The translations under genes were made by a program, and so were the position numbers. Shown piece by piece: positions 19,077-40,407 of a stretch of 64,000 bases of DNA; position 1 is the stretch's first letter, and every line of letters starts with the position of its first letter. The stretch is taken from the NCBI RefSeq assembly GCF_006335115.1, contig NZ_VDMJ01000015.1:62001-126000 (forward strand), written 5' to 3'. The notes below the pieces were generated by a model. It ran no database searches and was not told the origin of the DNA. It was given only the letters and a program-made list of their open reading frames with translations. Source of the stretch: Streptomyces sp. NP160 (lineage in GTDB: Bacteria; Actinomycetota; Actinomycetes; Actinomycetales; Quadrisphaeraceae).

Positions 19077-19144
19077 TCCTCCTCGCACTTTCCGCCGGAA
19101 GTGCGAGGAGGAGGGGGTCTTGGTGCACTTCCCGCGGAAAGTGC
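19077..19144. repeat. Paired palindrome, copy A
   Basis: Long-armed copy at 19077-19112 (core 19085-19104, arms TCCTCCTC/GAGGAGGA) and short copy at 19125-19144, centres 40 bp apart. Both match the core GCACTTTCCGCGGAAAGTGC with one or two changes. Lies between the PRC-barrel gene and the convergent globin gene. Confidence 0.85.
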
Positions 19145-19165
19145 GCAGGGCGGTGGACGGTGGGG

Positions 19166-19615
19166 TCAGTCCTCGAAGGTGTTCAGCAGGCTGTGGGCCG
19201 CGCGGTCGAGGTAGTCCCACAGCACCTCGTGCTGCATCGGGGGCAGCGCCAGCGAGTCGACCGCGGCGCGCATGTGCGTCAGCCACGCGTCCCGCGCCGC
19301 CGGCCCGATGTGGAACCCCGCGTGCCGCATCCGCAGCCGCGGGTGCCCGCGGGTCTCCGAGTAGGTGCTCGGCCCGCCCCAGTACTGCTCCAGGAACAGC
19401 GTCAGGCGCTCGCGGGCGCCGTCCAGCTGCTCCTCCGGGTACATCGGGCGGAGCAGCGGGTCCTGCGCGACACCCTCGTAGAACGCATCGACCAGGCGCA
19501 CGAAGGTCTCGTGCCCACCCACCAGCGCGTAGAAGCTCTGCTGCTCGGCCGGCACGGAACGGCCCAGGCCGATCCCCGCGCGGGGGCCCTGCTGGGGAGA
19601 GGAGGACGACGGCAT
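19166..19615 (-). CDS. glbO: Group II truncated haemoglobin (GlbO/trHbO)
   Basis: A 149-residue protein with a globin fold of about 120 residues: 'FYALVGGHETFVRLVDAFYE' (A-B helices), 'LTLFLEQYWGGPSTYSE' and 'GHPRLRMRHAGFHIGPAARD', where the His of 'MRHAGF' is the proximal haem ligand and the Trp-Gly-Gly pattern marks group II. Binds oxygen or reacts with nitric oxide and peroxide. ATG at 19615 follows the TetR stop by about 20 nt on the same strand, so it may be the last gene of the permease-TetR-TetR transcript. A longer GTG start is possible a few codons upstream. Confidence 0.9.
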   Translation of the reverse strand: MPSSSSPQQGPRAGIGLGRSVPAEQQSFYALVGGHETFVRLVDAFYEGVAQDPLLRPMYPEEQLDGARERLTLFLEQYWGGPSTYSETRGHPRLRMRHAGFHIGPAARDAWLTHMRAAVDSLALPPMQHEVLWDYLDRAAHSLLNTFED

Positions 19616-19635
19616 CACCCGTCCATCATCGCCGC

Positions 19636-20250
19636 TCACCGCGGCGCGGCGTCCCAGCGGCTGGGCTGCAGGACCACCTCGGCGGCCCAGGCCGCGGCGT
19701 CGGCGGCGTCCCGGTCGTCCATCTGCAGCTCTCGGCGCAGCACCACCCAGGTGGCGGCGGAGTCGAGGTGGGTGAGGGCCGCGGCCAGGTGGCCCTGCGC
19801 GGAGTCCTCGGTGCCCACCAGCTCCTCGCGCACCAGGCGCGCCGCGGCCGGCTCGGACGGCGCCAGCGGCGGCTCCTCGAGCTCCGTGCGCAGCGTGGTC
19901 TCCGCCACGACGTGCGCCAGCTCCGGCCGCTCGGCGTAGCCGCGCATCGACTCGCGCACCGTGAGCGGCAGGTCGAACACGGAGGCGGCGGGCTCGCGGG
20001 CGAACACGGTGGCCTCCAGCCAGGCGGCGGTGGCCGCCAGCAGCTGGGCACGGGTGGGGTAGCTGCGGTAGACGGTGCGCTCGGCCACGCCGGAGCGGCG
20101 GGCGATGAGGCGGAAGGGCACGTCGTCGGTGCCCAGCTCCTCGATGAGCGCCACGTAGGCGGTGAGGACCGCGAGCTGGGACCGCGTCAGGTCCGGCGCA
20201 GGGGTCTGGTCGGGGTGCCGGGCCGCGCCGCCCGACGGCACCGCGCTCAT
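19636..20250 (-). CDS. TetR-family transcriptional regulator 1
   Basis: A 204-residue protein with an N-terminal helix-turn-helix (residues 27-72: 'LIARRSGVAERTVYRSYPTRAQLL') and a variable helical ligand domain. ATG at 20250 overlaps the stop of the preceding TetR gene (ATGA). The two TetR proteins share the helix-turn-helix pattern ('GVAERTV..' then 'PTRA.LL'), suggesting a duplication, while the ligand halves differ. They lie directly downstream of an NCS1 permease on the same strand and may sense the permease substrate. Target operator not identified. Confidence 0.85.
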   Translation of the reverse strand: MSAVPSGGAARHPDQTPAPDLTRSQLAVLTAYVALIEELGTDDVPFRLIARRSGVAERTVYRSYPTRAQLLAATAAWLEATVFAREPAASVFDLPLTVRESMRGYAERPELAHVVAETTLRTELEEPPLAPSEPAAARLVREELVGTEDSAQGHLAAALTHLDSAATWVVLRRELQMDDRDAADAAAWAAEVVLQPSRWDAAPR

Positions 20251-20849
20251 GCGCTCGGGTCCGCGGACGCCGCCTGGGGCGCGGGCGCACCGGCGGTCCG
20301 CAGTGCCCCCAGGACCCGCTCGGTCACCGCGTCGAGCACGTCCGCGGCTCCGGCGCCGTCGACCCCGAGGCGGGTGCGGGCGTGCGCCCAGAACAGCGGC
20401 GCGGCGAAGGTGCGCAGCGCTCCTGTGGCCCGCCGCAGGTCCCGGCGGTTGACGCCGGGGAGCTCGTGCTCCACCACCGCCGTGACGGCGTGGGTGAGGA
20501 AGTCGGGCTCGGTGCTGCTGACCGGGGAGACGGCGGCCGAGCGGGCGAGCACCCCCGCCTTGCGGGGGGCGGCGTCGAAGGCGAGGAAGCGCTGGCGGGT
20601 CGAGGCGCGGAACTCGGTGGCCGTGAGGAAGGGCTGGAAGGGCATCTCCAGCTCGTCGATGCGCTGGGCCAGGCCCGTCAGCAGGTGCGCGCGGGTGGGG
20701 AAGTGGCGGAAGACCGTGCGCTCGGCCACGCCGACGGCGTCCCCCAGCAGCCGGTAGGAGATGTCGTCGAGGGGCAGCTCGTCGAGCATCGCGCTGGCGG
20801 CGGCGAGCACGGCGGACGCGGTGTCGCGGCCCTCGCGGCTGTCACCCAT
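20247..20849 (-). CDS. TetR-family transcriptional regulator 2
   Basis: A 200-residue TetR protein. Helix-turn-helix at about residues 30-60 ('LLGDAVGVAERTVFRHFPTRAHLL'), ligand domain to the C-terminus. I chose ATG 20849, with a GGGAGG site about 10 nt upstream; a GTG at 20861 would overlap the permease stop (GTGA) and is also possible. Similar recognition helices to the next regulator suggest both bind related operators, or one another. Confidence 0.8.
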   Translation of the reverse strand: MGDSREGRDTASAVLAAASAMLDELPLDDISYRLLGDAVGVAERTVFRHFPTRAHLLTGLAQRIDELEMPFQPFLTATEFRASTRQRFLAFDAAPRKAGVLARSAAVSPVSSTEPDFLTHAVTAVVEHELPGVNRRDLRRATGALRTFAAPLFWAHARTRLGVDGAGAADVLDAVTERVLGALRTAGAPAPQAASADPSA

Positions 20850-20857
20850 CGCTGTGC

Positions 20858-22576
20858 TCACCTCCCTCGCGCCTCGGTCCGGTGCGGACCGGGAGCGGGC
20901 TCCGGCGGCAGCAGGTACCTGTCGGTGGGGTCCAGGGTGAGCGCCAGCGAGGAGACGTACAAGGGCTCTCCGGAGGACCCCACCTGGGTGGACGCGAGCA
21001 TATCCGGGCGCTCGAACAGGTACCCGGTGACGTGGCAGCGCAGGCGCTGGCCCGACGGGTTGCCGTCGCCGTCGACGAGCGGGGAGCCGATGCCGTCGTC
21101 CGTCCGCCGCAGGTACCAGCGTCCCCGGGTGAGCGCGGCCACAGCAGGCGTGGTCAGGGCTGCGACGCTGATGGCGACGAGCACCGAGAACGACCGGGCG
21201 GCCTCGCCGAACGCGCCGAAGAACGTCAGGAGGGACAGCGCCGACGACAACCCCACGGAGACCAGCCCCACGGGGTTCCACCCGTGCAGCATGCCCTTGC
21301 GGAACTCGGGGTGGCGCGGCCCGAGGCCGAGCACGCGGCGCACCACCACGAGGTCGACGGCGATCGTCACCAGCCACGCCATCACGACGTTGGCGTACAG
21401 GCTGAGCACGAAGCCGATGAGCGAGAAGACGTCGAGCAGCATCAGCCCCAGCGCCATCGCGAGGTTGAACAGCACGAACACGGTGCGCCCCGGGTAGCTG
21501 CGCCGCACCCGGGTCCAGACGTTGAGCCACGCCAGGGACCCGGAGTAGGCGTTGGTGACGTTGATCTTCACCTGTGCGACGACGATGAGCAGCAGCGTCG
21601 CGACGGCCCCGAGCCACGCGGGCACCAGCTCGCTGTACAGGGCGAGGAACTGCTGCACGGGCTCCACCGCGCGGGCGCCCATCCCCGGGTCGACGCGGGT
21701 GAGCAGGTAGGCCGCGAGCAGCGCACCGAGCACCTGCTTCACGCCGCTGAACAGCACCCACCCCGGCCCGGCGAGCACCGTCCAGGTCCACCACGAGCGG
21801 CGGTTGGCGGGGGTCCGCGGGGGCATCGAGCGCAGGTAGTCGACCTGCTCGGCCAGCTGCGGGGTCAGGGCGAAGCAGACCGCCGCGCTCGCCACGACGC
21901 CGCTGAGCGTGGCGGCGCCGCCGGCGGACGAGGTCCCCGGGAAGCTCGCGAAGTCGTCCAGGACCGCGGGGTCGGACACCACCAGCCACGCCAGCGGCAG
22001 CAGCGCCAGCACCAGCCACAGCGGGGTGGTCCAGGCCTGCAGCGGCTCGAGCGCCCGCATCCCGTGCACGACGATCGGCACCACCACCACCGTGGAGACG
22101 AGGTAGCCGAGCGGCAGCGGGACCCCCAGCACCGCGTGCAGGCCCTGCGCCATGATCGCGCCCTCGAGCGCGAAGAAGATGCAGGTGAAGCCCGCGAAGA
22201 CGAGCGTCGTGATGATCGAGCCGTAGTAGCCGAAGCCGGCGCCGCGGGCCACCAGGTCGAGGTCGAGGTTGTACCGCGCCGCGCAGTGCGCCACGGGTGC
22301 CCCGACCACGAAGATGATCGCCGAGGCGAGCGCGATGCCCAGGACCGCACTGGTGCTGCCGTGGACCACGGCGACGCTCGCGCCGATGGAGAAGTCGGCC
22401 AGGAACGCGATGGAGCCCAGCGAGGTGACCCCGACCGCAGAGGTGCTCCAGCGGCGGAAGCTGCGCGGCACGTACCGGAAGGCGTAGTCCTCCAAGGAGT
22501 CCTGGGCGGCGTCCAGCGCGTCCCCGCCCCGCGACCGCCGCACCCCTCGTCCTCCTCGCGCGTCCAGCACCACCAA
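20858..22576 (-). CDS. NCS1-family purine/cytosine/allantoin-type permease
   Basis: A 572-residue membrane protein with about 12 hydrophobic segments between residues 50 and 480. The N-terminal 'SLEDYAFRYVPRSFRRWS' precedes TM1, and 'AFAGFTCIFFALEGAIM'-like segments, 'QVKINVTNAYSGSLAWLN' and 'GWNPVGLVSVGLS' match NCS1 nucleobase/allantoin transporters (Na+ or H+ symporters). The charged C-terminal extension of about 80 residues is unusual for the family. It starts 101 nt downstream of urtE on the same strand with a hairpin in between, and heads a cluster of two TetR genes and a globin. Substrate not determinable, but nitrogen-rich compounds fit the neighbourhood. Confidence 0.85.
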   Translation of the reverse strand: MVVLDARGGRGVRRSRGGDALDAAQDSLEDYAFRYVPRSFRRWSTSAVGVTSLGSIAFLADFSIGASVAVVHGSTSAVLGIALASAIIFVVGAPVAHCAARYNLDLDLVARGAGFGYYGSIITTLVFAGFTCIFFALEGAIMAQGLHAVLGVPLPLGYLVSTVVVVPIVVHGMRALEPLQAWTTPLWLVLALLPLAWLVVSDPAVLDDFASFPGTSSAGGAATLSGVVASAAVCFALTPQLAEQVDYLRSMPPRTPANRRSWWTWTVLAGPGWVLFSGVKQVLGALLAAYLLTRVDPGMGARAVEPVQQFLALYSELVPAWLGAVATLLLIVVAQVKINVTNAYSGSLAWLNVWTRVRRSYPGRTVFVLFNLAMALGLMLLDVFSLIGFVLSLYANVVMAWLVTIAVDLVVVRRVLGLGPRHPEFRKGMLHGWNPVGLVSVGLSSALSLLTFFGAFGEAARSFSVLVAISVAALTTPAVAALTRGRWYLRRTDDGIGSPLVDGDGNPSGQRLRCHVTGYLFERPDMLASTQVGSSGEPLYVSSLALTLDPTDRYLLPPEPAPGPHRTEARGR

Positions 22577-22592
22577 GGGTCACCCGATGACG

Positions 22593-22650
22593 CCCCACGA
22601 GTGTTGCGCCCCCGTTGCGACGGCGTTGCAGGTGGTGACCACTCGTGGGG
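22593..22650 (-). terminator. Inverted repeat after urtE
   Basis: CCCCACGAGTG (22593-22603) and CACTCGTGGGG (22640-22650) form a perfect 11-bp stem with a long loop of 36 nt, in the 101-nt gap between urtE and the NCS1 permease. It could terminate urtABCDE transcripts or act as an operator for the permease genes. Confidence 0.4.
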
Positions 22651-22677
22651 GCCCAGCCACCTCGGGTGCCCGGCGCC

Positions 22678-23375
<698 letters not shown>

Positions 23376-23379
<4 letters not shown>

Positions 23380-24230
23380 GCGCGTGCCCCCTCGTCGTCG
23401 TCGGTCGTCGAGCCGGAGCCGGAGCCCTCGTGCCCGCGGCCCGCCGAGGTGCCCAGGTAGACCTCCTGGACGCGCGGGTCGGCCTGCACCTGCGCGATCG
23501 ACCCCTCGCTGATGACCGCGCCCTGGTGCAGCACCGTCACCCGGGAGGCGAAGCGCCGCACGAAGTCCATGTCGTGCTCGACGACGACGACGGCCCGGTG
23601 CTCGGCGATCCGCTGCAGCAGCTGCCCGGTAGCCGTGCGCTCGTCGTGGCTCATCCCGGCCACCGGCTCGTCCAGCAGCAGCACGCGAGCGTCCTGCACG
23701 AGGAGCATCCCGATCTCGAGCCACTGCTTCTGCCCGTGCGACAGGGTCCCGGCGCGCTGGCCGAGGGCGCCGGCCAGCCCGATCTGCTCGGCGGCCGCTT
23801 CGACGCGGGGGTCGGCGCCGCGGCGGGGCCGCACGAGCGCCACCGGTCTGCGGTGCATCCCCGCGGCGATGTCGAGGTTCTGCAGCACCGACATCTCCTC
23901 GAAGACGCTGGCCGTCTGGAAGGTGCGGCCCACCCCCAGCCGCGCGGTGCGGTGCACCGGGCGGCCGAGCAGCTCGTCGTCGCCGAGCTTGGCCGAGCCG
24001 GTGCCCTTCACCAGACCGGTGACGGCGTCGATGCAGGTGGTCTTGCCGGCTCCGTTGGGCCCGATGAGGAAGCGGACCTCCCCGGGGTGGGCGTCGAAGC
24101 TGGCGTCCGAGACGGCCGTGAAGCCGCCGAACTGCACGCGCAGCCCGGTGACCACCAGCGAGACGGGGCTGGCCTGGCCGGTGGCGACGTCCTCGGGGGC
24201 TCCCAGGACGTCGACGGTGCGCGGGCTCAC
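23376..24230 (-). CDS. urtD: Urea ABC transporter ATP-binding protein UrtD
   Basis: A 284-residue ATPase. Walker A 'GPNGAGKTT' near residue 58, signature 'LSHGQKQWLEIGMLL' and Walker B 'LLLLDEPVAGMSHDE', the UrtD/LivG form. A charged acidic C-terminal tail ('GSGSGSTTDDDEGARA') extends past the usual end. GTG at 24230 overlaps the urtC stop (GTGA), and its own stop overlaps urtE, so translation is coupled across the operon. Confidence 0.92.
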
Positions 24231-25396
24231 GGGTGGACCTCCTGTCCGGTGGGCTGGTCGGTGGGCTGGTCGGCCCGAGCCGCGGCCGACCGTCGCGGCT
24301 CCTCGGGATCCTCTGGCGGGGTGGCCCCGACCGAGCCGCGCGGCCGAAGGCGCTCGCGCAGCCGGTCGACCAGCGAGGCCGCTCCTCCGGGGAGGAGGGC
24401 GATGACGGCGATGAGCAGCGCGCCCTGGAAGTAGCTCCAGAAGGAGGGGAACGCCTCCGACAGGCTGGTCTCCGCCCAGGCGACGCCGATCGCTCCCAGC
24501 ACGGGACCGAACAGCCCCGCCCGGCCGCCCACGGCCACGCCGACGATGAAGATGATCGACGGGACGACGCCGATGTCGGCGGGGGAGATGATGCCGACGA
24601 TCGGCACGAACAGCGCCCCCGCGACACCCGCGAGCACGGCCGCCAGCGCGAAGGCGGCGGTCTTGACCAGGGCCGGGTCGTAGCCGAGGAAGCGCACCCG
24701 CTCCTCGGCGTCGCGGGTGGCCACGAGCAGCTCCCCGAAGCGGCTGCGCTGCAGCGCGGCTGACAGCGCCACCGAGGCGATGAGCACGCCGGCTGCCAGG
24801 TAGTACAGCGTGGTCCGGTTGGCGGGGTCGGCCAGCGAGTAGCCGAAGAACGACCGGAAGCCGTTGAGGCCGTTCGTGCCGCCGGTGGTCTGCTGCTGGC
24901 CGACGAGCAGCACGACGAACGCCGCGACCAGCGCCTGGGAGAGGATGGCGAAGTAGGCGCCCTTGATGCGGCGGGTGAAGATCGCCAGTCCCAGCGCGGT
25001 GGCGACGAGCGCGGGGAGGAGCAGCACGGCCAGCAGGGTCACCAGCGGGCTGCGGAACGGCTCCCACCACCACGGCACGGTGCCGTCGCCGTACAGGAGC
25101 ATGAAGTCCGGCACGCCGGAGCCGCCGCCCAGCTCGGCGTCGGCGAGCTTGAGGTGCATGGCCATGGCGTAGCCGCCGATGCCGAAGAAGACCCCCTGGC
25201 CGAGGGTCAGCATGCCGCCGCGGCCCCAGGCGATGCCGATGCCCACCGCGACGATGGCGAAGCAGATGAACTTGCCGAGCAGGGCGAGCCGGAAGTCGGA
25301 CAGCACGAGCGGGGCGAGCACGAGCAGCGCCACCGCCAGGGCCCCGGTGCCCACGAGCGAGCCGCGGCGGCTGGGAACCCCCAGCCCGCCGTTCAC
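24227..25396 (-). CDS. urtC: Urea ABC transporter permease UrtC
   Basis: A 389-residue permease with about nine hydrophobic segments between residues 15 and 340. The motifs 'GRGGMLTLGQGVFFGIGGYAMA'-like region, 'GTNGLNGFRSFFGYSLAD' and 'RFLGYDPALVKTAAFALAAV' match UrtC. The C-terminal 45 residues are hydrophilic and repeat-like (ADQPTDQPTGQ). GTG at 25396 overlaps the urtB stop. Confidence 0.92.
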   Translation of the reverse strand: MNGGLGVPSRRGSLVGTGALAVALLVLAPLVLSDFRLALLGKFICFAIVAVGIGIAWGRGGMLTLGQGVFFGIGGYAMAMHLKLADAELGGGSGVPDFMLLYGDGTVPWWWEPFRSPLVTLLAVLLLPALVATALGLAIFTRRIKGAYFAILSQALVAAFVVLLVGQQQTTGGTNGLNGFRSFFGYSLADPANRTTLYYLAAGVLIASVALSAALQRSRFGELLVATRDAEERVRFLGYDPALVKTAAFALAAVLAGVAGALFVPIVGIISPADIGVVPSIIFIVGVAVGGRAGLFGPVLGAIGVAWAETSLSEAFPSFWSYFQGALLIAVIALLPGGAASLVDRLRERLRPRGSVGATPPEDPEEPRRSAAARADQPTDQPTGQEVHP

Positions 25397-26277
25397 GCGA
25401 GGCTCCGCGTGCGCACCGTGAACAGACCCTGCGGGCGGACCTGCAAGAAGGCCACGACGATCACGAGGATGAGGAACTTGGCGATGCTCGCCGTCGTCGA
25501 CAGCTCGATGAAGGCCTGCAGCAGCCCCAGACCGAAGGCGGCGAGCACGGCGCCGCGGATCTGCCCGATGCCCCCGGCCACGACCACGAGGAACGCGTCG
25601 ACGATGTAGCTCGTGCCGAGCGTCGGCCCGGTGGAGCCCACGAGGGTCAGCACCACGCCCGCCACGCCGGCCAGCCCGGAGCCGATCACGAAGGTCAGCC
25701 GGTCGGTGGCGCGGGTGGAGATGCCGGAGGTCTCGGCGAGGTCGCGGTTCAGGACGACGGCGCGGATGCGCCGGCCGAGCGCGGTGGTGGTCAGCAGCAG
25801 CGCGAGCCCGCCGACCGCCACGACCACCACACCGAGGATGAACAGGCGGGCCAGCGGCACGGCCGTGCCGAGCACCTCGACGTTGCCCTGCAGCCAGGCG
25901 GGCGTGCGCACGTCGACGGCGGGAGCGCCGAAGACGTCGCGCGCCGCCTGCTGCAGCACGAGCGAGACGCCGAAGGTGGCCAGCAGCGTGTCGAGCGGCC
26001 GGTGGTACATGTGCCGCACGAGCAGCTGCTCGAGCAGCGCCCCGAGCAGGCCGCCCACGGCGAAGGCCACCGGCAGCGACACGAGCAGCGACAGCCCGGC
26101 GTCGCCGAGCAGCTGCTGCACCACGTAGGCGGTGTAGGCCCCGGCCATGATGAACTCGCCGTGGGCCATGTTGATCACCCCCATCTGGCCGAAGGTCAGC
26201 GAGAGCCCGATGGCCACCAGCAGCAGCACGGAGCCGATGCTCGCTCCGGCCACCACCTGCGACGCGATGACGTCCAC
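25393..26277 (-). CDS. urtB: Urea ABC transporter permease UrtB
   Basis: A 294-residue permease with eight hydrophobic segments. 'GLSLTFGQMGVINMAHGEFIMAG'-type motif (residues 25-47), 'TLLATFGVSLVLQQAARDVFGAP' region and 'GGIGQIRGAVLAAFGLG' are UrtB features. It ends by overlapping urtC (GTGA) and begins 31 nt after the urtA stop. Confidence 0.92.
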   Translation of the reverse strand: MDVIASQVVAGASIGSVLLLVAIGLSLTFGQMGVINMAHGEFIMAGAYTAYVVQQLLGDAGLSLLVSLPVAFAVGGLLGALLEQLLVRHMYHRPLDTLLATFGVSLVLQQAARDVFGAPAVDVRTPAWLQGNVEVLGTAVPLARLFILGVVVVAVGGLALLLTTTALGRRIRAVVLNRDLAETSGISTRATDRLTFVIGSGLAGVAGVVLTLVGSTGPTLGTSYIVDAFLVVVAGGIGQIRGAVLAAFGLGLLQAFIELSTTASIAKFLILVIVVAFLQVRPQGLFTVRTRSLA

Positions 26278-30321: not shown

Positions 30322-30387
30322 GCACTTTCCGCGGCAAGTGCGCCACCCACGCGCCCGGTGACGCACTTTCCGCGGAAAGTGCGTCAC
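30322..30387. repeat. Paired palindrome, copy B
   Basis: Short copy 30322-30341 (one mismatch from the core) and a perfect long-armed copy 30358-30387 (core plus GTGAC/GTCAC arms), centres 41 bp apart. Lies between the mscS stop and the start of the NAD(P)-binding protein gene (both on minus strand). Confidence 0.9.
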
Positions 30388-31638: not shown

Positions 31639-33905
31639 GCGGGCGTCCCGTCGCCGTCCTGACCGAGCGGCAGGCCGGTGTGCGCGGCGGCGAAGCACAG
31701 CGTGTCGGCGGCCAGCTGGACCGTCCGGGAGACCGCGCGGGCGCCGTGGCCGACACCGGCCTCGCGCCGCAGCAGCACCGGCCGCTCGCGCGGGTCGGAG
31801 CGGGTGGCGTGCTGCAGCGCCGCGCACAGCTTGCGGGCGTGGAGGGGGTCGACGCGGGAGTCGCCGTCGAAGACGGTGAAGAGCACCGCCGGGTAGTCCA
31901 CGGACGCCGGGTCGGGCGAGCACGCGTGGTACGGGGAGTAGGCGAGGAGCCAGCCGAGGTCGTCGGGGTCGTCCGCGTCGCCGTACTCCGGTGACCACGT
32001 GGCCCCGAGCCCGTGCAGCTGGTACCTGACCATGTCGAGCAGCGGCGCCGAGCACAGCACCGCGGCGAACGCCTGGGGCTTCTGCGTGAGCGCCGCCCCG
32101 ACGAGCAGCCCGCCGTTGGAGCCGCCGCTGATGGTGAGCTGCGCGGGCGTGGTCCAGCCGCGCTCGGCGAGCGCGTCGGCCACGGCGAGGAAGTCGTCGA
32201 AGACGTTCTGCTTGGCGGCGAGCATGCCCGCGCGGTGCCACGCCTCGCCCTCCTCGTTGCCACCGCGCAGCCCGGCGACCACCCACACCCCGCCGGCCTC
32301 GACCCACGCCAGCGCCGTGGCGGAGTAGCCCGGCGTCATGGTGTGGCCGAAGCCGCCGTAGCCGTACAGGACGGTCGGCGCGGGGGCCGCCGGAGCGGCC
32401 GCGCCGGCGGGCGCGAAGGCGTCGGCGCGGGCGACGGCGAGGGCCCGCACCACGGTGCCGTCCAGGCTCGTCACCTCGAGCTGGCGGGTGACGACGGCGG
32501 GCAGCTCGCCCATCGACGCCAGACCCGGCGCCGTGGCCTCGACGGTCAGCTCGCCCGTGCGGGCGTCCCAGTGCAGGACGCTCGGCAGCTCGGCGGTGGA
32601 GGTCCAGGTGAACCACGCCTCGTGGCCGCCGTCCGGCCGGCCGCGCAGCCCGCCGAGGCTGCCCGCGCCGGGCAGCGCCACCGCCCCCCGGTCGCCGGGG
32701 AGCTGCTCGCCGCTGGCGAGGTCGTGCACGGTGAGCCGGGCGACGGCGTGCTGCGTCCATGCGACCAGCAGCAGCGGCTGCTCGAGCTCCGGGCCGTCCA
32801 GGACGGCGTAGTCCTCCAGGACGGCGTCCTCGCGCTCGCCGACGAGGTCGCGCCAGCGGTCCGGTCCGAGCCCCTCGGGGTCGGCCGGGTCGGCGACGGC
32901 GAGGCGCCCGCGCGGCGCGCCGAGGTCGGTGCCCACGTAGAGGCGGCCGTCGCGGCCGACGCCGGCGCTGGTGTGCGCGTCGAGCCCCACGGCCACGGGC
33001 TGCAGCTGGGGGACGCCCGCGGCGAGGCCGCCGTCGGCGGCCAGGTCCGCGAGGTAGCAGTCCGAGCGCGGGGACGTGCCCACCGACGTCGTCACCGCCA
33101 GCCAGCGCCCGTCCAGCGACGTGCCGACGCCGTAGTAGGTGGTGGTGGGCTGGCCGGCGCCGAACACCTCGACGTCGCCGCCGTCGCCGGGCTCGGCGTC
33201 CGGGTCGGCGCCGACCCGGTGCAGCCACACGCGGCGGTGGTACTTCTCCTCGCCGGCCGGCAGGCCCTCCGGCGCGAGCCGGCGGACGTAGAAGAAGCGC
33301 GCGCCGTCCTCCTCCGAGGCCGGCAGCCAGGAGACGGGGGAGTAGCGGACCCGCTCGACGGGACCGTCGACCACCTCGCCGGTGGCGACGTCGAGCACGC
33401 GCAGCACGCTCTCCTCGCTGCCGCCCTCGGACAGCTGGAAGGCGAGCAGGTGGCCCTCCCGCGAGGGCTGCCACGCGTCGAGCGTCGTCCTGCCGGTGGG
33501 GTCCCACACCAGCGGGTCGATGAGCACCCTCTCCTCGACGGCGCCGCCCGCTCCCCTCTCGCAGACGAGGAGCTGCGGGTGGTCGCGGCCCGGGTCGCGG
33601 CGGGCGCGGAAGCACCGGTCGCCGCGCCACACCGGCGGGCCGACCGCTCCCGCCGACAGCAGCTGCGCGATGCGAGCGGCGACGGCGTCGCGGCCCGGCC
33701 AGGTGGCCCGCTCGGCGGCGAACAGGGCGTCCTGCGCCGCGGACCAGGCGCGGGTGCGCTCGTCGTCGTCGTCCTCCAGCCACCGGTAGGGGTCGGCGAC
33801 GCGGTAGCGGGGATCGTGCGTGGGGAGCTCCTCGACGAGGTCGAGCCGCTCGGCGGGCGGGTACGCCACGGGGGCTGCGGGGGCAGACGGCGAGGACGAC
33901 GACAC
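31635..33905 (-). CDS. Prolyl oligopeptidase-family serine peptidase (S9)
   Basis: A 756-residue cytosolic enzyme: N-terminal seven-bladed beta-propeller (about 60-420) that filters substrates, then an alpha/beta hydrolase domain. Ser in 'SGGSNGG' (near residue 590), Asp in 'FDGDSRVDPLHA' and His in 'AGVGHGA' form the triad. Cleaves after proline in short peptides. GTG 33905 was chosen because the family N-terminus ('YPPAERLDLVEELP') starts soon after. Overlaps mscS by 4 nt, so both are one transcript; the promoter lies in 33906-34102, shared with divergent malQ. Confidence 0.9.
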   Translation of the reverse strand: MSSSSPSAPAAPVAYPPAERLDLVEELPTHDPRYRVADPYRWLEDDDDERTRAWSAAQDALFAAERATWPGRDAVAARIAQLLSAGAVGPPVWRGDRCFRARRDPGRDHPQLLVCERGAGGAVEERVLIDPLVWDPTGRTTLDAWQPSREGHLLAFQLSEGGSEESVLRVLDVATGEVVDGPVERVRYSPVSWLPASEEDGARFFYVRRLAPEGLPAGEEKYHRRVWLHRVGADPDAEPGDGGDVEVFGAGQPTTTYYGVGTSLDGRWLAVTTSVGTSPRSDCYLADLAADGGLAAGVPQLQPVAVGLDAHTSAGVGRDGRLYVGTDLGAPRGRLAVADPADPEGLGPDRWRDLVGEREDAVLEDYAVLDGPELEQPLLLVAWTQHAVARLTVHDLASGEQLPGDRGAVALPGAGSLGGLRGRPDGGHEAWFTWTSTAELPSVLHWDARTGELTVEATAPGLASMGELPAVVTRQLEVTSLDGTVVRALAVARADAFAPAGAAAPAAPAPTVLYGYGGFGHTMTPGYSATALAWVEAGGVWVVAGLRGGNEEGEAWHRAGMLAAKQNVFDDFLAVADALAERGWTTPAQLTISGGSNGGLLVGAALTQKPQAFAAVLCSAPLLDMVRYQLHGLGATWSPEYGDADDPDDLGWLLAYSPYHACSPDPASVDYPAVLFTVFDGDSRVDPLHARKLCAALQHATRSDPRERPVLLRREAGVGHGARAVSRTVQLAADTLCFAAAHTGLPLGQDGDGTPA

Positions 33906-34102
33906 GCCTCCCGACCTTAGGCGGCGCCGCCGACCGCCGGGCGGGGCCCGGGTGGCGTCCACCGCGCGGGAGTGCGGGTGGGGCGCGACCGTTCCGGCGC
34001 GCCCGCTCGCGCGGCGGGCCCCCGGCGGGCAGGCTGGCGCCGTACCCTCCCAAGACGCCAGACGACGCGCGCAGCCGCGCCCGCACCACCCAGGAGCTCC
34101 GC

Positions 34103-36388
34103 GTGAGTGACAGCCCGCAGTCCGTGCTGGCCCGCAGCGAGGACGACGGGCGGGGCGGCACCGCCACCACCTCCGGACCGGACCTGGAGGTCCGCACCAC
34201 CGTGCACGGCAACGAGCCGACCCTCTCCATCGACCCGTCGGAGCAGCCCTCGCCCCGGCTCGTGGAGCTGGCCGCCGCGCACGGCGTGGCCACCGAGTAC
34301 TGGGACTGGAAGGGCGGCCACATCACCGTCTCGCGCGCCACGGTCGTGGCGGTGCTGAGCGCGATGGGCATCGCCTGCAGCAGCGAGGACGACGTCGAGG
34401 CCGCCCTGGCCGCGCACGAGCTGGCGCCGTGGCGCCGGGCGCTGCCGCCGGTCGTCGTCGTGAGGTCCGGCCGGGAGGCCACCGTGCCGGTGCACGTGGC
34501 CGCCGGCACGCAGGTGCACGTCTCGGTGGTGCTGGAGGACGGCGGGCAGCACGAGCTGGCGCGCGCGTCCTCCGGTGACGCCGCCGGTGCCCGCGAGGTG
34601 GACGGCGAGCGGCGTGAGGAGCAGCTGTACGCCCTGCCCACCGACCTCCCGACGGGCTACCACGAGCTGCTCGTCACTACCGGGGGCGGGGCCTCCGCGG
34701 TCCGGGAGGCCACCGCGCCGCTCGTGGTCACCCCCGACCTGCTGGAGCTGCCCGAGGCGATCGCCGGCCCCGGTCACCGCTGGGGCTTCATGGCGCAGCT
34801 GTACTCGGTGCGCAGTCGCGCCTCGTGGGGCCTCGGTGACCTGGCCGACCTCGGCGAGCTGCTCGACTGGTCCGGCCGCGACCTGGGCGCCGACTTCCTG
34901 CTCATCAACCCGCTGCTCGCCGCCGAGCCGGTCGGCCACCAGCAGGACAGCCCCTACCTGCCCACCACGCGCCGGTTCACCAACCCGATCTACCTGCGGG
35001 TGGAGGACGTGCGGGAGTTCGCCTACCTGCCCGCCACCGACCACGCCCTCGTGGAGTGGCAGGCCGAGCCGCTCATGGCCCGCAACACCGACCCCGGCCA
35101 GCTCGACAGGGACTCCGTGTGGGCCGCCAAGCGCACCGCGCTGAAGACCGTCTTCGAGGCGGGGCGCAGCCCCGCCCGGCAGGCCGCCTTCGACGCGTTC
35201 CGGGTCCGCGAGGGCCAGGGCCTCGCCGACTACGCCCTGTGGGCCGCGATGATCGAGCACTTCGGCGAGGGGCAGCCCTGGCCGCAGGAGGCCTCCCGCG
35301 TCGGCTCGCCGCTGGTCGAGCGGCTGCGCGAGGAGCTCTCGGGCGCCATCGAGTTCCACGAGTGGCTGCAGTGGCAGTGCGACGAGCAGCTGGCCCGCGC
35401 CCAGGCGACCGCCACCGAGGCCGGCATGGCCCTCGGCGTCATGCACGACCTCGCCGTGGGCGTGCACCCGTCCGGTGCCGACGCCTGGGCGCTGCGCGAC
35501 GTGCTCGCCACCGGCGTCTCCGTGGGTGCCCCGCCGGACGCCTTCAACCAGCAGGGCCAGGACTGGTCCCAGCCGCCGTGGCAGCCGGTGGCCCTGGCCG
35601 AGGCCGGGTACGCGCCGTGGCGCGACATGGTCCGCACGATCCTGCGCCACGCCGGGGGCATCCGCGTCGACCACGTCCTCGGCCTGTTCCGCCTGTGGTG
35701 GGTGCCCAACGGCTCCGGGCCGGGCGCGGGCACCTACGTCCGCTACGACCACGACGCGCTCGTCGGCATCCTCTGCCTGGAGGCCGCCCGCGCCGGCGCC
35801 GTCGTCGTCGGGGAGGACCTGGGCCTGGTCGAGCCCTGGGTGCGCGGCTACCTCACCGAGCGCGGCGTGCTCGGCACGTCCGTGCTCTGGTTCGAGAAGG
35901 ACGGCGAGGGCCAGCCGCTGCCGCCGCAGTCCTGGCGCGAGCTGTGCCTGGCCACGGTCAACACCCACGACCTGCCGCCGACCGCCGGCTACCTCGCCGG
36001 GGAGCACATCGACCTGCGCGACCGCCTCGGCCTGCTCACGCGCTCGGTGGAGGAGGAGCGCGCCGCGGACGAGGCCGACCGCGCCGCGGTGCTGGCGCAG
36101 CTGCGCGACCTCGGCCTGCTGGGGGAGCGGCCCACCGAGCGCGAGGTGGTGGAGGCCCTGCACGCGTTCCTGCTGGCCACGCCCGCCAAGCTGGTCGGCG
36201 TCGCGCTCACCGACGCCGTCGGCGACCGCCGCACGCAGAACCAGCCCGGCACCTCCGACGAGTACCCCAACTGGCGCGTCCCGCTGACGGACGGCGCCGG
36301 CGAGGTGGTCCTCGTCGAGGAGCTGCGGGAGCGCCCGCGGGTGCTGTCGCTGGCCGAGCTGGTCAGCAGCAGCGGCGACGACGACTGA
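34103..36388 (+). CDS. malQ: 4-alpha-glucanotransferase MalQ
   Basis: A 761-residue GH77 enzyme that transfers glucan segments between maltodextrins in glycogen or maltose metabolism. Residues: nucleophile Asp in 'GIRVDHVLGLFRLWW' (near 520), acid/base Glu in 'VVGEDLGLV' (near 575) and third carboxylate in 'NTHDLPPTAG' (near 620). An N-terminal extension of about 220 residues with the beta-rich actinobacterial domain precedes the barrel. GTG start at 34103 with GGAGCTCC upstream. Confidence 0.95.
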   Translation: MSDSPQSVLARSEDDGRGGTATTSGPDLEVRTTVHGNEPTLSIDPSEQPSPRLVELAAAHGVATEYWDWKGGHITVSRATVVAVLSAMGIACSSEDDVEAALAAHELAPWRRALPPVVVVRSGREATVPVHVAAGTQVHVSVVLEDGGQHELARASSGDAAGAREVDGERREEQLYALPTDLPTGYHELLVTTGGGASAVREATAPLVVTPDLLELPEAIAGPGHRWGFMAQLYSVRSRASWGLGDLADLGELLDWSGRDLGADFLLINPLLAAEPVGHQQDSPYLPTTRRFTNPIYLRVEDVREFAYLPATDHALVEWQAEPLMARNTDPGQLDRDSVWAAKRTALKTVFEAGRSPARQAAFDAFRVREGQGLADYALWAAMIEHFGEGQPWPQEASRVGSPLVERLREELSGAIEFHEWLQWQCDEQLARAQATATEAGMALGVMHDLAVGVHPSGADAWALRDVLATGVSVGAPPDAFNQQGQDWSQPPWQPVALAEAGYAPWRDMVRTILRHAGGIRVDHVLGLFRLWWVPNGSGPGAGTYVRYDHDALVGILCLEAARAGAVVVGEDLGLVEPWVRGYLTERGVLGTSVLWFEKDGEGQPLPPQSWRELCLATVNTHDLPPTAGYLAGEHIDLRDRLGLLTRSVEEERAADEADRAAVLAQLRDLGLLGERPTEREVVEALHAFLLATPAKLVGVALTDAVGDRRTQNQPGTSDEYPNWRVPLTDGAGEVVLVEELRERPRVLSLAELVSSSGDDD

Positions 36389-36435
36389 CGGCTGACGGCT
36401 GACACCTGCGGGCCGTCGCCTGGCAGCATCGGGGT

Positions 36436-37236
36436 GTGACCCGGTCGACGACGGCGCTCGCGGTGGGCGCCGGCGCCCTCGCCGTCGCCCTGCTGGCGTC
36501 CGCCTGCACCGGGGGGACGGGCTCGGGGGGCGGGTCGTCCTCCTCCTCCGCCACCGGCGGCGCGACGACGACGAGCCCGGCGCCGACCACGGGCCTCGTG
36601 CGCGCCGACGCCACCGACGCCGCGCCACCGCCGCGCCCCACCCCGCGGGAGGGGCTGGGACGCCTCGAGGACCAGCCCTACGGGTGCGGCACGAGCGCCC
36701 CGCCGTGCGAGGTGTGGCTGCCCGTCGTCGCCACGGGCCCGGCCGAGCTCGTCAACAGCAGGCTGCGCGCGTCGGCGGACTACGGCGTGCGCGTGGCCTC
36801 CGCCTCCGACGGCCCCCACGCCGTCTCCGGCCGCAGCGAGGTGACCGTCAACGACGGGCGGACCCTGCAGGTGCTCATCGAGCTGTACGACGAGCCGTCG
36901 GTGGACGCCGAGCCCGTCGAGTCGGTGACGACCGTGGCGCTCACCGCCGACGACGCCTCGCCGGTCTTCCTGGCCGACCAGCTGGCCGACCCCGACGCGG
37001 CCTGGGCCGTGCTCGTGCAGGAGGCCACCGACGCCGGCGCCGAGGACGGGCTCGTCGCCGAGCGCCCGCTGGAGGCGTCGGCGGAGCAGTTCGCCGACTG
37101 GCAGGCGGGGACGAGCGGCGTGGAGGTCTGGTTCCAGCGCGGGGAGTTCGGCCCGGGTGTGACGAGCGTGGTGCTGCCCTGGGAGGCGGTCCTGCCGCTG
37201 ATGACCCCCGGGGGACGGGCGCTGCTGGCCCCCTAG
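36436..37236 (+). CDS. Putative secreted lipoprotein, unknown function
   Basis: A 266-residue protein with a lipoprotein signal peptide ('LLASACTGG', Cys near residue 23), a Gly/Ser/Thr-rich linker to about residue 60, and a folded domain of 190 residues with two cysteines ('YGCGTSAPPCEVW') near its start. Family unrecognised. GTG 36436 (a GTG two bases before is out of frame). It lies 47 nt after malQ and nearly abuts the Eis-like gene, so all three may be one operon. Confidence 0.65.
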   Translation: MTRSTTALAVGAGALAVALLASACTGGTGSGGGSSSSSATGGATTTSPAPTTGLVRADATDAAPPPRPTPREGLGRLEDQPYGCGTSAPPCEVWLPVVATGPAELVNSRLRASADYGVRVASASDGPHAVSGRSEVTVNDGRTLQVLIELYDEPSVDAEPVESVTTVALTADDASPVFLADQLADPDAAWAVLVQEATDAGAEDGLVAERPLEASAEQFADWQAGTSGVEVWFQRGEFGPGVTSVVLPWEAVLPLMTPGGRALLAP

Positions 37237-37237
37237 C

Positions 37238-38518
37238 GTGGAGGCCGTGAGCTCACGTCGGCAGCACGGGCAGCAGGTCGAGGTCAGGGCGGTCGATCCG
37301 GACGAGCAGCTGGCGTGGCTGTCGTCCTCCCGCCGGACGTTCCTGCACCCCAGGACCGTCACGCCCGAGCACGTCGAGCACCGCCGGCCCGCGTGGGAGG
37401 GGCAGCGGCTGACCGGCGCCTTCGACGGCGAGCGCGTGGTGGGCACGTACCGCTCGTGGGACTGGCCGCTGCCCGTGCCCGGCGGCCCGGGGCACGCGCT
37501 GCTCACCGACCACGTCAGCTCCGTCACCGTGGCGCCGACCCACCGCCGCCGCGGGATCCTCACCCGGATGATCACCGCCGATCTGCGGGCGGCGAAGGAG
37601 CGCGGCGTGCCGATGGCCTACCTCGTCGCCGGGGAGGCGCCCATCTACGGGCGGTACGGCTTCGGTGCCGCCGTCGGCGGGCAGGTCCTCGAGGTGCGCG
37701 CCCCGGCGCCGCTCGCGCACCTGCCCGCTCCGGTGGAGGACGTGGTGGTCGAGCTGGTCGAGGACGCCGACCTGCGCGCCGAGGCCCCTGCGCTGCACGC
37801 CGCCGTCGCCGCCTCCCGCCCGGGCGCGGTGCGGCGCCCGGAGCGGTATTGGGACGAGGTGCTCGGCCTGGCTCCCGGGCCCGGCGAGGAGTCCTCGGAC
37901 CGCCGGCCGGCGCTGCTGGCGCGCGACGCCACCGGCGCCGCCGCGGGCGTCGCGCGCTACCGCACCCACGAGCGGTGGGAGGGTATGCGGCACGACACCA
38001 CCCTCGAGGTCAGCGACCTCTTCGCCGCCACGCCCGCCGCGCAGGCGGCGCTGTGGCAGCACCTGCTGTCGGTGGACATCGTCGACCGCGTCCGCGTCAC
38101 CGACCGACCCCTGGACGACCCGCTGCCCGAGCTCCTCCACGACCGCCGCCGAGCCCTGCCGGTGGAGGCCAGCGACCACCTGTGGACCCGGCTGCTCGAC
38201 GTGCCCGCGGCGCTCGCGGCCCGCGGGTGGCTGGGGCCGGAGGGGGCGTGCGTGCTGGAGGTGCACGACGCGCTGGGGCTGGCCGGCGGCCGGTGGCGCC
38301 TCGACCTGGAGGCGGGGAGCGTCGTGGCCGTGGCCACGGCGGCGGAGCCCGACGTCTCGTGCGACATCGGCGCGCTGTCGGCCGCCTACCTGGGGGAGAC
38401 CCCCCTCGTGGCGCTGGCGGCGGCCGGACGGGTGCGCGGGGAGGCGGCCGCGGTGGCGCGGCTGTCAGCGCAGCTGGCCTGGCGGCCGACCACCTGGCCG
38501 ACGCTCGGCCACTTCTGA
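37238..38518 (+). CDS. Eis-like GNAT acetyltransferase
   Basis: A 426-residue enzyme of the Eis family, with two GNAT-like domains and a C-terminal sterol-carrier-like region. 'SSVTVAPTHRRRGILTRMI' (about residues 90-108) holds the acetyl-CoA R-x-x-G/A motif; 'YGRYGFGAAV' follows. Eis in mycobacteria acetylates aminoglycosides and protein lysines; the target here is unknown. GTG 37238 is used; GTG 37247 is equally possible. Confidence 0.85.
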   Translation: MEAVSSRRQHGQQVEVRAVDPDEQLAWLSSSRRTFLHPRTVTPEHVEHRRPAWEGQRLTGAFDGERVVGTYRSWDWPLPVPGGPGHALLTDHVSSVTVAPTHRRRGILTRMITADLRAAKERGVPMAYLVAGEAPIYGRYGFGAAVGGQVLEVRAPAPLAHLPAPVEDVVVELVEDADLRAEAPALHAAVAASRPGAVRRPERYWDEVLGLAPGPGEESSDRRPALLARDATGAAAGVARYRTHERWEGMRHDTTLEVSDLFAATPAAQAALWQHLLSVDIVDRVRVTDRPLDDPLPELLHDRRRALPVEASDHLWTRLLDVPAALAARGWLGPEGACVLEVHDALGLAGGRWRLDLEAGSVVAVATAAEPDVSCDIGALSAAYLGETPLVALAAAGRVRGEAAAVARLSAQLAWRPTTWPTLGHF

Positions 38519-38522
38519 CACC

Positions 38523-38592
38523 GGAACCGCAGCCGAGCGCCCGGCTGCGGTTCCCGAGGGGTCAGGAGCCGCAACCGGGCGCTCGGCTGCGG
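38523..38592. repeat. Paired palindrome of a second family, copy D
   Basis: GGAACCGCAGCCG with CGGCTGCGGTTCC (38523-38554, 13-bp perfect stem, 6-nt loop) and a related imperfect palindrome CCGCAACCGGGCG...TGCGG (38569-38592), centres 42 bp apart. Begins 4 nt after the Eis-like gene and faces a convergent gene. Confidence 0.75.
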
Positions 38593-38601
38593 GAAGGGGG
38601 G

Positions 38602-39651
38602 TCAGTGGTCCTTGCCGGAGCCCTTGCCCTGGCCGTTCGAGGAGCCCTTCGCCTCGGAGCCCGACCCCTTGCCGGAGCCCTTGCCCGAGCCGCCGTCGTC
38701 GCCGCTCTCGACCTCGGAGGACGACGACGAGGCGCTCGGAGCGGTCGCGGTCGCGCTCGTCGAGGGCGCCGGCGCGCTGCTGGACGAGGAGGTGGGGGTG
38801 CCGCCGGAGCGCGCCTCGCGCCGGGCGTCGTTGCGGGCGTGCGCCGCGCCGCTGACGGCCTGGCCGTCCACGCCGCCGGAGCGCGCCTGGCTGCTCACCC
38901 AGGGACCCATCCCGCCGCTGGTCGGCGGCGCGACGGGGACGGACGTCGGGCCGTCGGACGGGGTCGAGCCGCCGTCGTCGTCGCCGTCCTCGGAGGGCTC
39001 ACCGGTGGAGGGCGCCTCGGCCGGGGCGGACGTCGGGTCGGACGTCGCGCCGGTGCGGGGGGTGCCGGAGGGCTCCTCGGTGGGCGCGTCGGTGGGGGTG
39101 TCCGTCGGAGCGGTGCTGGGGTCGGTGCTCGGGTCCGTGCTGGGATCCGTGGTCGGGTCAGCGGCGGGGTCGGTGCTGCTGTCGCTGGTCGGTGCCTCCA
39201 GCGGCGTCACCGCCGAGACCGTGGCCGCGAAACCGTCCTGCACCGGACCGGGCAGCGCGCCGGCAGCACCCGCTCCGACCACGGCGACGACGAGGACCGC
39301 GCCGGCGGCGGCGCCGGCGCGGGCAGCGCTGACAGCGGCCACGCGGCGGCCGACGGCGGTGAGGGTCTGGCGGGTCAGGGTCACGGGGTGCCTCCACGAG
39401 AGCGCAGGCCGCACCGGTGCGGGGGCGGCCGGGTCCGCGCCGTCGGCCCGGGCGGGCGTCACGGCGGTGTCGGTGAGGTGACCGGTGGCCAGCAGGACGG
39501 CGAGGTCGGCGCTGGGGCGGTGCGGCTGGCGGGCCACGGCGCGCACGTCGCGCGCGAAGGCCTCCAGCCGCGCCGCCGACGGCGCGTCGCCGCCCGCGCG
39601 CAGCGCGCGGACGTCCTCGTCGAAGGATCGCGTCCTCGGGTCGTCGGTCAT
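38602..39651 (-). CDS. Membrane protein with low-complexity extracellular tail (anti-sigma-like)
   Basis: A 349-residue protein. N-terminal cytosolic region of about 90 residues ('RSFDEDVRALRAGGDAPSAARLEAF', pattern seen in proteins cotranscribed with ECF sigmas), one hydrophobic segment near 110-130, then 220 residues rich in Thr, Ser, Pro, Asp, Gly and Lys with repeats such as TDPSTDPSTDPST and GSGKGSGKG. Its start overlaps the sigma-factor stop (ATGA), so it probably binds or restrains that sigma. The repetitive tail reflects extracellular or wall localisation. No zinc-type anti-sigma motif seen. Confidence 0.7.
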   Translation of the reverse strand: MTDDPRTRSFDEDVRALRAGGDAPSAARLEAFARDVRAVARQPHRPSADLAVLLATGHLTDTAVTPARADGADPAAPAPVRPALSWRHPVTLTRQTLTAVGRRVAAVSAARAGAAAGAVLVVAVVGAGAAGALPGPVQDGFAATVSAVTPLEAPTSDSSTDPAADPTTDPSTDPSTDPSTAPTDTPTDAPTEEPSGTPRTGATSDPTSAPAEAPSTGEPSEDGDDDGGSTPSDGPTSVPVAPPTSGGMGPWVSSQARSGGVDGQAVSGAAHARNDARREARSGGTPTSSSSSAPAPSTSATATAPSASSSSSEVESGDDGGSGKGSGKGSGSEAKGSSNGQGKGSGKDH

Positions 39652-40283
39652 CTCGTCTCCGTCATCGCCGGGGAGGTCCGCGGGGTCGCGCGGTCGTCGC
39701 GGCACTGGGCCGACAGGGTGAGCAGGCCCCGGCGCTGCAGGGCCTTCACGGACGCGGGCGTCTTCCCGAGCACCCGGGAGACCTCGTCCACCGACAGGTC
39801 GCCGAGCACCCGCAGGAGGACGACGGCGCGCTGGTCGCGGGGCAGCTGCGCGCACAGGTCGTGTACGCGGGAGGTGCCGAGGGAGGCGAGCGCCTCCTCC
39901 TCGGCGTCGCCACCGGGCAGGCCAGCGGTCGTGGTGTCGTCGTGGACGTCGACGTCGGCGAGCGCCGGCCGGCGCGAGGCCCGCCGCCAGGAGTCGGCCA
40001 GGCGCCGGTGGGCGATGGTGAAGACCCAGGCGCGGAAGCCCGCCTCGTCGCCCGCGAAGCGGCCGATGCCGGTGAGCACGCCGACGAAGACCTCGCTGGC
40101 GAGGTCGTCGGGCTCCGCGGCGCCGTGCAGGCGCAGGTACCCGGTGACCGGGCCGGCGAGCTCGCGGTAGAGGGTCTCCAGCGCCCACGGCGCGCCGGTG
40201 CGCGCGGCGTCGAGGACCTGCGGGAAGGCCGGACCGATCACCGGACGGCCGCGCGCAGAGCGGGGTGGTGCACGCCGCAGCAT
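39648..40283 (-). CDS. ECF-type RNA polymerase sigma factor
   Basis: A 211-residue protein with sigma region 2 ('LYRELAGPVTGYLRLHGAAEPDDLASEVFVG' then 'FRAWVFTIAHRRLADSWRR', the -10 recognition helices) and region 4 ('LPRDQRAVVLLRVLGDLSVDEVSRVLGKTPASVKALQRRGL', -35 binding). Redirects RNA polymerase to a stress or envelope regulon. ATG 40283 is used; a GTG at 40239 would give a more compact protein, and neither has a good ribosome site. Coupled to a membrane protein downstream. Confidence 0.88.
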   Translation of the reverse strand: MLRRAPPRSARGRPVIGPAFPQVLDAARTGAPWALETLYRELAGPVTGYLRLHGAAEPDDLASEVFVGVLTGIGRFAGDEAGFRAWVFTIAHRRLADSWRRASRRPALADVDVHDDTTTAGLPGGDAEEEALASLGTSRVHDLCAQLPRDQRAVVLLRVLGDLSVDEVSRVLGKTPASVKALQRRGLLTLSAQCRDDRATPRTSPAMTETR

Positions 40284-40330
40284 CGGCGGTCGCGCTCGGT
40301 CCCTTGAGCCTCCCGTCCCGTCCCGGCTCC

Positions 40331-40407
40331 TGCGCACCTTCCGCGGAAAGTGCGCACAGAAGGGCCCCCTTCTCGCACTTTCCGCGGAAAGTGCGAGAAG
40401 GGGGCCC
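40331..40407. repeat. Paired palindrome, copy C
   Basis: Short copy 40331-40356 (one mismatch) and a 46-bp perfect palindrome 40362-40407 (arms GGGCCCCCTTCTC outside the core), centres 41 bp apart, between the pepN stop (40421) and the sigma-factor start. Confidence 0.92.

Follow-up and report, generated by a model that had tools for sequence, protein, structure and literature searches.

Phased palindrome arrays in the genus of Quadrisphaera granulorum share their cores with arrays that bracket Vsr-like nuclease genes and are probably their dispersed, gene-free copies

In a 64,000-nucleotide stretch of a contig of Streptomyces sp. NP160 (hereafter the window), a 20-bp palindromic core, which we call F1, occurs six times with 0–2 mismatches, arranged as three pairs (Table 1). 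An earlier note, made from the window sequence alone, had described these pairs and their start-to-start distances of 40, 41 and 41 bp. They are real: 100 dinucleotide shuffles of the window yielded no F1 core, the arms at the three loci are self-complementary exactly as the note described, and the order stop codon, long-armed copy, short copy is true for all three pairs. Beyond them, the window holds three more solo elements that belong to other families, and the nuclease genes that we associate with such arrays lie elsewhere in the genome. This genome (G000), a 4.77-Mb draft, belongs to the genus of Quadrisphaera granulorum; G001–G005 are congeneric, G002 (coordinates of the NZ_QGDQ01 contigs) being Q. 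granulorum DSM 44889, and G006 represents another genus of the same family. Gene calls and start codons were obtained with a home-made codon model and script.

Table 1. Arrays and cores found in the window (window coordinates)
Feature	Position	Strand	Cores	Setting
Solo array 1, F1	19077..19144	.	19085–19104 + 19125–19144, 40 bp apart	convergent genes, stops 19004 (+) / 19166 (-)
Solo array 2, F1	30322..30387	.	30322–30341 + 30363–30382, 41 bp apart	between co-directional minus-strand genes, 3' of stop 30439
Solo F2 array	38529..38590	.	38529–38548 + 38571–38590, 42 bp apart; from unbiased scan	convergent stops 38518 (+) / 38602 (-)
Solo array 3, F1	40334..40407	.	40334–40353 + 40375–40394, 41 bp apart	3' of minus-strand gene with end at 40421
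Single F6 core, exact	45463..45482	+	GCACTCGGGTGCGCGAGTGC	3' of plus-strand gene ending 45404
Solo inverted pair, TGATCA type	50801..50857	.	CCGTGATCATGGGCGTCCGCCACC + reverse complement	convergent gap 50791–50862

At up to three mismatches, the F1 core is found at 58 places in its own genome, while a reversed-pattern control gave none. We read 104 F1 loci from three species (24 in G000, 37 in G001 and 43 in G002); this set drew on 50 of the 58 own-genome places and likewise on a subset of those in G001 and G002, with about seven G002 arrays left out (one at C38:30115, two on C39, one on C42, two on C46 and one on C48). These loci form 114 clusters with 124 steps between neighbouring cores, of which 73 measure 41 bp, 47 measure 42 bp, two 40 bp, one 38 bp and one 134 bp. 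Arrays were extended through weaker cores at 38–44 bp (39–44 bp at F6 loci), which favours that spacing; no such step enters the unbiased pair scan or the flank lag scan described below. Over distances of 25–70 bp in the window and the 104 loci, the pair scan returned 105 F1 pairs, 102 of them at 41 bp (63) or 42 bp (39), with two at 40 bp and one at 38 bp; the three window pairs may count twice in this total, as loci L032–L034 overlap the window. The spacing is fixed and, as the earlier note had remarked, close to four helical turns, and neither it nor the copy number is that expected by chance.

Arrays also prefer particular places, namely gene 3' ends. Between convergent genes we found 65 of the 114 F1 clusters, as compared with 120 of 582 adjacent gene pairs from the same loci and the window, a background that itself contains the array-bearing gaps. 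The median gap from an F1 array to a facing 3' end is 24 bp (n=168) and to a facing 5' end 95.5 bp (n=54), and 34 of 42 arrays between co-directional genes lie closer to the upstream stop; these figures omit three clusters in which a gene had been called (L052, L095, L100). Arrays of the F3 family (see below) likewise lie near gene 3' ends, with only 2 of 16 in convergent gaps, and F6 loci have a convergent context in 8 of 20 cases.

The conservation within the genus that the earlier note proposed to examine applies to the core and the spacing. Among 26 groups of orthologous array sites common to two or three species, core identity is 0.90, the same as between random arrays. Spacers are 0.66 identical (random arrays: 0.55), flanks 15–40 bp out 0.68–0.71 (0.58) and flanks 150–300 bp out 0.79–0.82 (0.61–0.62). 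Spacing changed by no more than 1 bp in 35 of 36 orthologous comparisons, while the stop-to-core distance was this stable in 11 of 53 (Fisher 6e-14); within a three-species group, the comparisons depend on one another, and some groups were defined by a single flanking gene. Since spacing hardly changes while spacer identity resembles that of the nearby flanks, the spacer drifts like its intergenic surroundings and its length is kept. Individual window arrays differ in their history: the gap orthologous to that of array 1 holds an F1 pair in G001 and G002, a single F1-like core in G004 and, in G003 and G005, an array of F2, a different 20-bp palindrome with a 42-bp period; at the gap that corresponds to array 2, no array was seen in G001, G002, G004 and G005, and G003 has a degenerate pair. 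A separate strong hairpin (GAGGCCCTCGCCCC...GGGGGCCTC, window 19020–19080) stands between the upstream stop and array 1; it is kept in G001, G003, G004 and G005 and is probably the gene's own terminator.

Two F1 arrays enclose a single gene of about 295 codons in each of G000, G001 and G002 (in Q. granulorum DSM 44889 at L021:7091–7978), and its homolog in G006 (47% identity) lies between two F3 arrays. Searching 39 relatives yielded 30 loci, and two further searches added 20 and 20. Twelve loci were mapped with their own core, all except the added L254 picked because a core had already been seen there; all have arrays on both sides, one side of L251 being a single readable core. The 5' array ends 83–170 bp before the start codon and the 3' array begins 6–58 bp after the stop; the cassette consists of a left array of 2–4 cores, the gene, and a right array of 1–4 cores inverted to the left one. 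Some of these cores are weak, with up to 7 mismatches (4 and 6 on the 5' side for F7). In 10 loci, the core nearest the gene had minus orientation at every readable 5' side (8 of 8) and plus orientation at 8 of 9 readable 3' sides. Because the bracket reads minus 5' and plus 3', a solo minus–plus array looks, judged by core orientation, like a cassette without its gene. At L030, on the 3' side of the own-genome F1 nuclease, an apparent further core some 40 bp ahead of the one at 2461 contains five N bases.

The flank lag scan involved no choice of loci and did not require palindromes. For 24 close homologs from 15 genomes, 41 or 42 bp was the best or joint best repeat lag in 40 of 48 flanks, as compared with 89 of 2000 random segments (Fisher 4e-43); 23 of the 24 have at least one such flank. 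Among 26 homologs that are more distant, this lag was best or joint best in 1 of 52 flanks. An inverted match of at least 20 of 22 bases across the gene was found for 19 of the 24 (control 3/600); relaxing the cutoff to 18 of 22 brings in all 24, together with 35 of 46 distant homologs and 86 of 400 controls. The 24 homologs are not independent, several being orthologs at one locus, and the random controls are tiles of G006–G008 (for the inverted match also of the window) that include one real F3 array.

Eight core families were distinguished at nuclease loci: (i) F1 in G000–G002; (ii) F2 in G003 and G005; (iii) F3 in G006; (iv) F4 and F7 in G008; (v) F5 in G007; (vi) F6 in G000 and G004; and (vii) F8 in G001. 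Within the genus, the abundance of a core follows the presence of its nuclease (larger strand count used). At up to two mismatches, F1 occurs 52, 74 and 103 times in G000, G001 and G002, which have its nuclease, and 1, 3 and 0 times in G003, G004 and G005, which do not; none was found in the other 93 of 99 genomes searched. The F3 core (CGACTTCG-GCAG-CGAAGTCG) has 67 places in G006 and 0–7 in the 98 other genomes, its arrays reaching 7 well-matched cores at 41 bp (9 counting weak cores). F6 and F8 count 46, 20 and 11 with the nuclease and 2, 0 and 0 without it, and F2 counts 35 and 24 with it (G003, G005) and 6, 3, 10 and 2 in genomes where none was found. G000 has a second nuclease (G000:C100:72896–73768, L278), and F6, which brackets it, was first met there and then sought elsewhere; it was recovered at window position 45463, at L040 and, genome-wide, as 41/46 strand hits. 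All 28 F6 steps in 20 chosen loci measure 42 bp; these loci came from the genome-wide list, 19 of the 20 already showing a neighbour, and 8 single places were left out. The F6 pattern was also matched in G006 (two) and in G009, G011 and G012 (one each).

The nucleases at one locus in G007, G008 and G010, which represent two genera, have different cores. In tree clade B, the nucleases of G000 and G004 are close and both have F6; the G001 member is more distant and has F8. On this comparison of tree and core, the cores apparently change together with the resident gene. The F2 nuclease of G003 was assigned by its bracket and locus, not by the tree. Other DNA of about 1 kb interrupts the F2-linked gene of this genome (L256, G003:C2:564215–566159), in which F2 is abundant. 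The F1 nuclease of G000–G002 and the F2 nuclease of G003 and G005 adjoin the same neighbour gene in opposite orientation (L249/L253/L256), which suggests an inversion or repeated use of one site.

The bracketed gene encodes a Vsr-like endonuclease of the MTES_1575/DUF559 family: all 17 aligned members match Pfam MTES_1575 and 13 match DUF559 (E <= 0.01). Against the PDB, the profile matched best to 3r3p, a "mobile intron protein" (E 8e-4), and then, weakly, to Vsr (E 0.16), in both cases over only the C-terminal part. We take 3r3p to be I-Bth0305I, an EDxHD homing endonuclease. Conserved motifs are PES, RxD and E-Y-x-G; judging from the alignment, the catalytic acids are likely E194 and D226, which are invariant, and E237, present in at least 90% of members. 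In clades A and C, WR stands in place of the WH of the other clades. PADLOC returned weak AbiEi matches (up to 4 of the 17 members per model), homing endonuclease (2) and Vsr (1), and we infer that the N-terminal half is AbiEi-like. PMC3710099 describes MTES_1575 as a Vsr-fold nuclease domain.

Two features that the earlier note had described in the window are not supported as rules beyond it. It had described one long-armed and one short copy in each pair; in 80 two-core arrays, at least four contiguous paired arm bases were found in exactly one copy 32 times, in neither 45 times and in both three times. It had also proposed that pairing, not arm sequence, is kept. At least five contiguous arm pairs occur in 48 of 238 F1 cores, above 2000 shuffles (mean 9.6, maximum 21), so that arm self-complementarity is confined to about one fifth of F1 cores, and none of 79 F3 cores has four or more contiguous pairs. 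The F1 arms are not wholly free, the left consensus being C/T-rich and the right one G/A-rich. In the core itself, 187 of 238 copies are altered on one side of pair 7, most F1 copies have a stem mismatch, and compensatory change is almost nil (8 cells among 238 copies and ten pairs); on this ground we rejected conservation of pairing alone. In F3, stem pair 5 is changed on both sides and still paired in 15 of 76 copies. Outer arms showed no excess of pairing with each other. Unoriented spacers showed no covariation beyond composition that would make them palindromic; turned G-rich side first, they reach a covariation z of up to 3.1, and they share a purine-run/pyrimidine-run pattern. Of the bases flanking the 238 F1 cores, only a C before and a G after are conserved; the base beside F3 cores is not fixed.

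Because the change at position 7 or 14 is one-sided (85 of 94 copies in G001 and 83 of 88 in G002), the F1 core has a direction. Adjacent F1 steps in these two genomes comprise 24 inverted in the order b–a, one in the order a–b, and 54 direct. The minus-then-plus order leads 12 to 3 in F3, the three deriving partly from weak end cores, and 9 to 0 in F6; over these three families, core reversals are minus-then-plus 45 times and the opposite four times. The polarity noted earlier is hence real and intrinsic to the array, but it is independent of the upstream gene: array orientation showed no relation to it, and we rejected that explanation.

We consider it likely that the window pairs are dispersed non-autonomous copies of an array–nuclease–array element, that is, of a system resembling the REPtron (a repetitive extragenic palindrome, REP, with its enzyme) built on an unrelated nuclease that would bind, cut and copy the arrays. 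The nuclease of such a system would bind the core of its own array, probably with dimers occupying adjacent cores: 41–42 bp is about four helical turns, so that neighbouring sites would lie on the same face, and a pair spans 61–62 bp. Parts of PMC3943268 describe I-Bth0305I as dimerising on a target of nearly 60 bp, close to this span. The nuclease may then nick or cut at the cores, after which repair or strand transfer could copy or homogenise the arrays, as REP-associated tyrosine transposases (RAYTs) are thought to do for REPs and REPINs; copies would persist mainly at gene 3' ends, either tolerated there or useful as hairpins. Solo arrays of F1, F3 and F6 have the same core, period and minus/plus order as the nuclease brackets. 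Miniature inverted-repeat transposable elements (MITEs) share inverted ends with an autonomous element in the same genome, and here the bracketed gene would be the autonomous one.

Several observations weigh against this reading. No target-site duplication or excision was seen; at the two sites compared, the boundaries are too diverged for a duplication to be read. Array turnover must be slow, because the 26 orthologous site groups are shared between species, and the nuclease gene is not visibly mobile, because its loci are conserved. The F1 nuclease scores 20–21 bits on Pfam MTES_1575, below the cutoff of 38.2. A match that is direct instead of inverted, again with 20 of 22 bases or better, is seen for 6 of 24 close homologs (palindromic cases) and 14 of 46 distant ones (control 6/600). 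F2 is present at 2–10 copies in genomes in which no F2 nuclease was found, F4, for which three of the five G008 places lie at its nuclease, fits uniform dispersal poorly, and the close homolog L261 (G016, from another family of the order) lacks a 41/42-bp flank. This L261 homolog is bracketed by inverted repeats of about 30 bp in a transposon-like manner.

The main alternative, which we regard as rather unlikely, gives the resident nuclease a role in regulation or defence and makes the arrays its operators, anchor sites or self-marking sites; selection would maintain them, and the enzyme would have no part in spreading them. The position of the 5' array ahead of the start codon in 12 of 12 loci is like that of an autoregulatory operator, and the weak AbiEi matches, the persistence of arrays at orthologous sites and their constrained spacing all agree with it. 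However, solo arrays lie at gene 3' ends and not at promoters, the site of array 1 holds different families in different species, and array 2 is present in G000 and not in four relatives (loss is also possible, given the degenerate pair in G003); moreover, the inverted 3' array after the nuclease and the MITE-like minus/plus order would be left unexplained. The convergent placement, the short distance to the facing stop, the excess of arm complementarity over shuffles and the compensated F3 pair would instead suit bidirectional terminators or mRNA 3'-end hairpins whose cores are homogenised by gene conversion, the nuclease link being incidental. PMC8355165 describes clustered-hairpin terminators, in which more than one hairpin follows the stop codon, a high-GC actinobacterium being among the cases; on our reading, they require neither a common sequence nor a fixed phase, and no gene is linked to them. 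Termination does not require a genome-wide 20-bp core phased at 41/42 bp, most F1 copies have a stem mismatch, few F3 arrays are convergent and, inferring from copy number, only a small minority of convergent gaps can hold an array; as the bracket and the abundance link would also go unexplained, we disfavour terminators as a full account and think it improbable.

Several traits are shared with known REPs. As described in parts of PMC3733652 and PMC3116915, REP–RAYT systems combine a repeat-flanked enzyme gene with short, species-specific extragenic palindromes and dispersed non-autonomous inverted doublets (REPINs), placed within about 20 bp of gene 3' ends, and the imperfect palindromes of 20–40 bp in many extragenic copies that characterize REPs are present here. 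The unpaired terminal GTAG or CGTC tag was found neither in the 238 F1 cores nor in F3. The RAYT domain Y1_Tnp was detected in 0 of 6 congeneric genomes (G000–G005; control positive 5/14), and we rejected a RAYT as the mover; with a different, Vsr-like enzyme bracketed instead of the HUH tyrosine transposase, ordinary REPs or REPINs moved by a RAYT are a very improbable source. The strict 41/42-bp period, the frequency of direct neighbours and the variation of the core with nuclease lineage are further differences from the REPtron. CGTC-tagged REPs resemble F3 in having an 8-bp stem and a 4-nt loop and, according to parts of PMC3733652, no dedicated enzyme is known for them; the cores here lack that tag and have a candidate enzyme. 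The 3r3p and Vsr matches and the acidic motifs point to a Vsr/EDxHD catalytic domain. Differences from an EDxHD homing endonuclease are that no intron or intein was seen and that the gene is flanked by repeat arrays of its own. We also rejected a clustered regularly interspaced short palindromic repeat (CRISPR) array, judged without a cas gene search: the spacers share a pattern and drift at orthologous sites, and the cores reverse.

The layout that the earlier note called undescribed matched nothing that we found in the open-licence part of PubMed Central (PMC), where, among the matches listed, no paper tied the nuclease family to repeats in its title or the start of its abstract. Since no literature match makes this link and the tests for REP tag and RAYT failed, we judge the array–nuclease element, as far as open-licence papers go, to be categorically new as a system. 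A broader proposal, on which we are evenly divided, is that of an Actinomycetota-wide selfish or domesticated class in which each Vsr-like nuclease lineage recognises and propagates its own phased array and each subfamily fixes its own period (41–42 bp here, mostly 30–33 bp in the TGATCA type), an independent counterpart of RAYT–REP in which recognition co-evolves with the repeat. Dispersed copies of a nuclease-bracketed array would provide (i) a candidate enzyme for short palindromic repeats in genomes where the tyrosine transposase is not found; (ii) a possible function to test for DUF559/MTES_1575, nucleases for which none is known; (iii) in the eight nuclease-linked core families, a co-evolution set for how such a protein reads DNA; and (iv) through fixed phasing over unrelated cores, the physical prediction of binding on one helix face.

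The TGATCA type belongs to a more distant nuclease subfamily, which we know from flank scans without a genome count. Several distant homologs have inverted arrays with periods of 30–33 bp, others of 35, 37, 40 or 44 bp; the unit of these arrays contains CCGTGATCATG or a close form, and an inverted match of at least 20 of 22 bases was found in 27 of 46 distant homologs. The window pair agrees in 21 of 22 bases with the 5' side of one of them, on G000:C104 (L315), and is a solo copy of this type.

Three further sequence recurrences were recorded. The exact 20-mer GCACTTTCCGCGGAAAGTGC forms eight single, unpaired palindromes in other contexts in the Oligoflexales metagenome-assembled genome CH-Jul18-22 (L016–L018, L023–L025, L027), which are unexplained, coincidence of the 10-bp half-site or convergence being the candidates, and this 20-mer has one unpaired copy, also in another context, in a Microbacteriaceae metagenome-assembled genome. 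In L300–L303 (G006, G009, G011 and G012; one other genus) there is a palindrome close to TCACTCTCGTGCGAGAGTGC. Finally, a CGTCGTCGTCC / GGACGACGACG motif recurs next to F1 arrays in the intergenic flanks (e.g., L038, L041, L057, L119).

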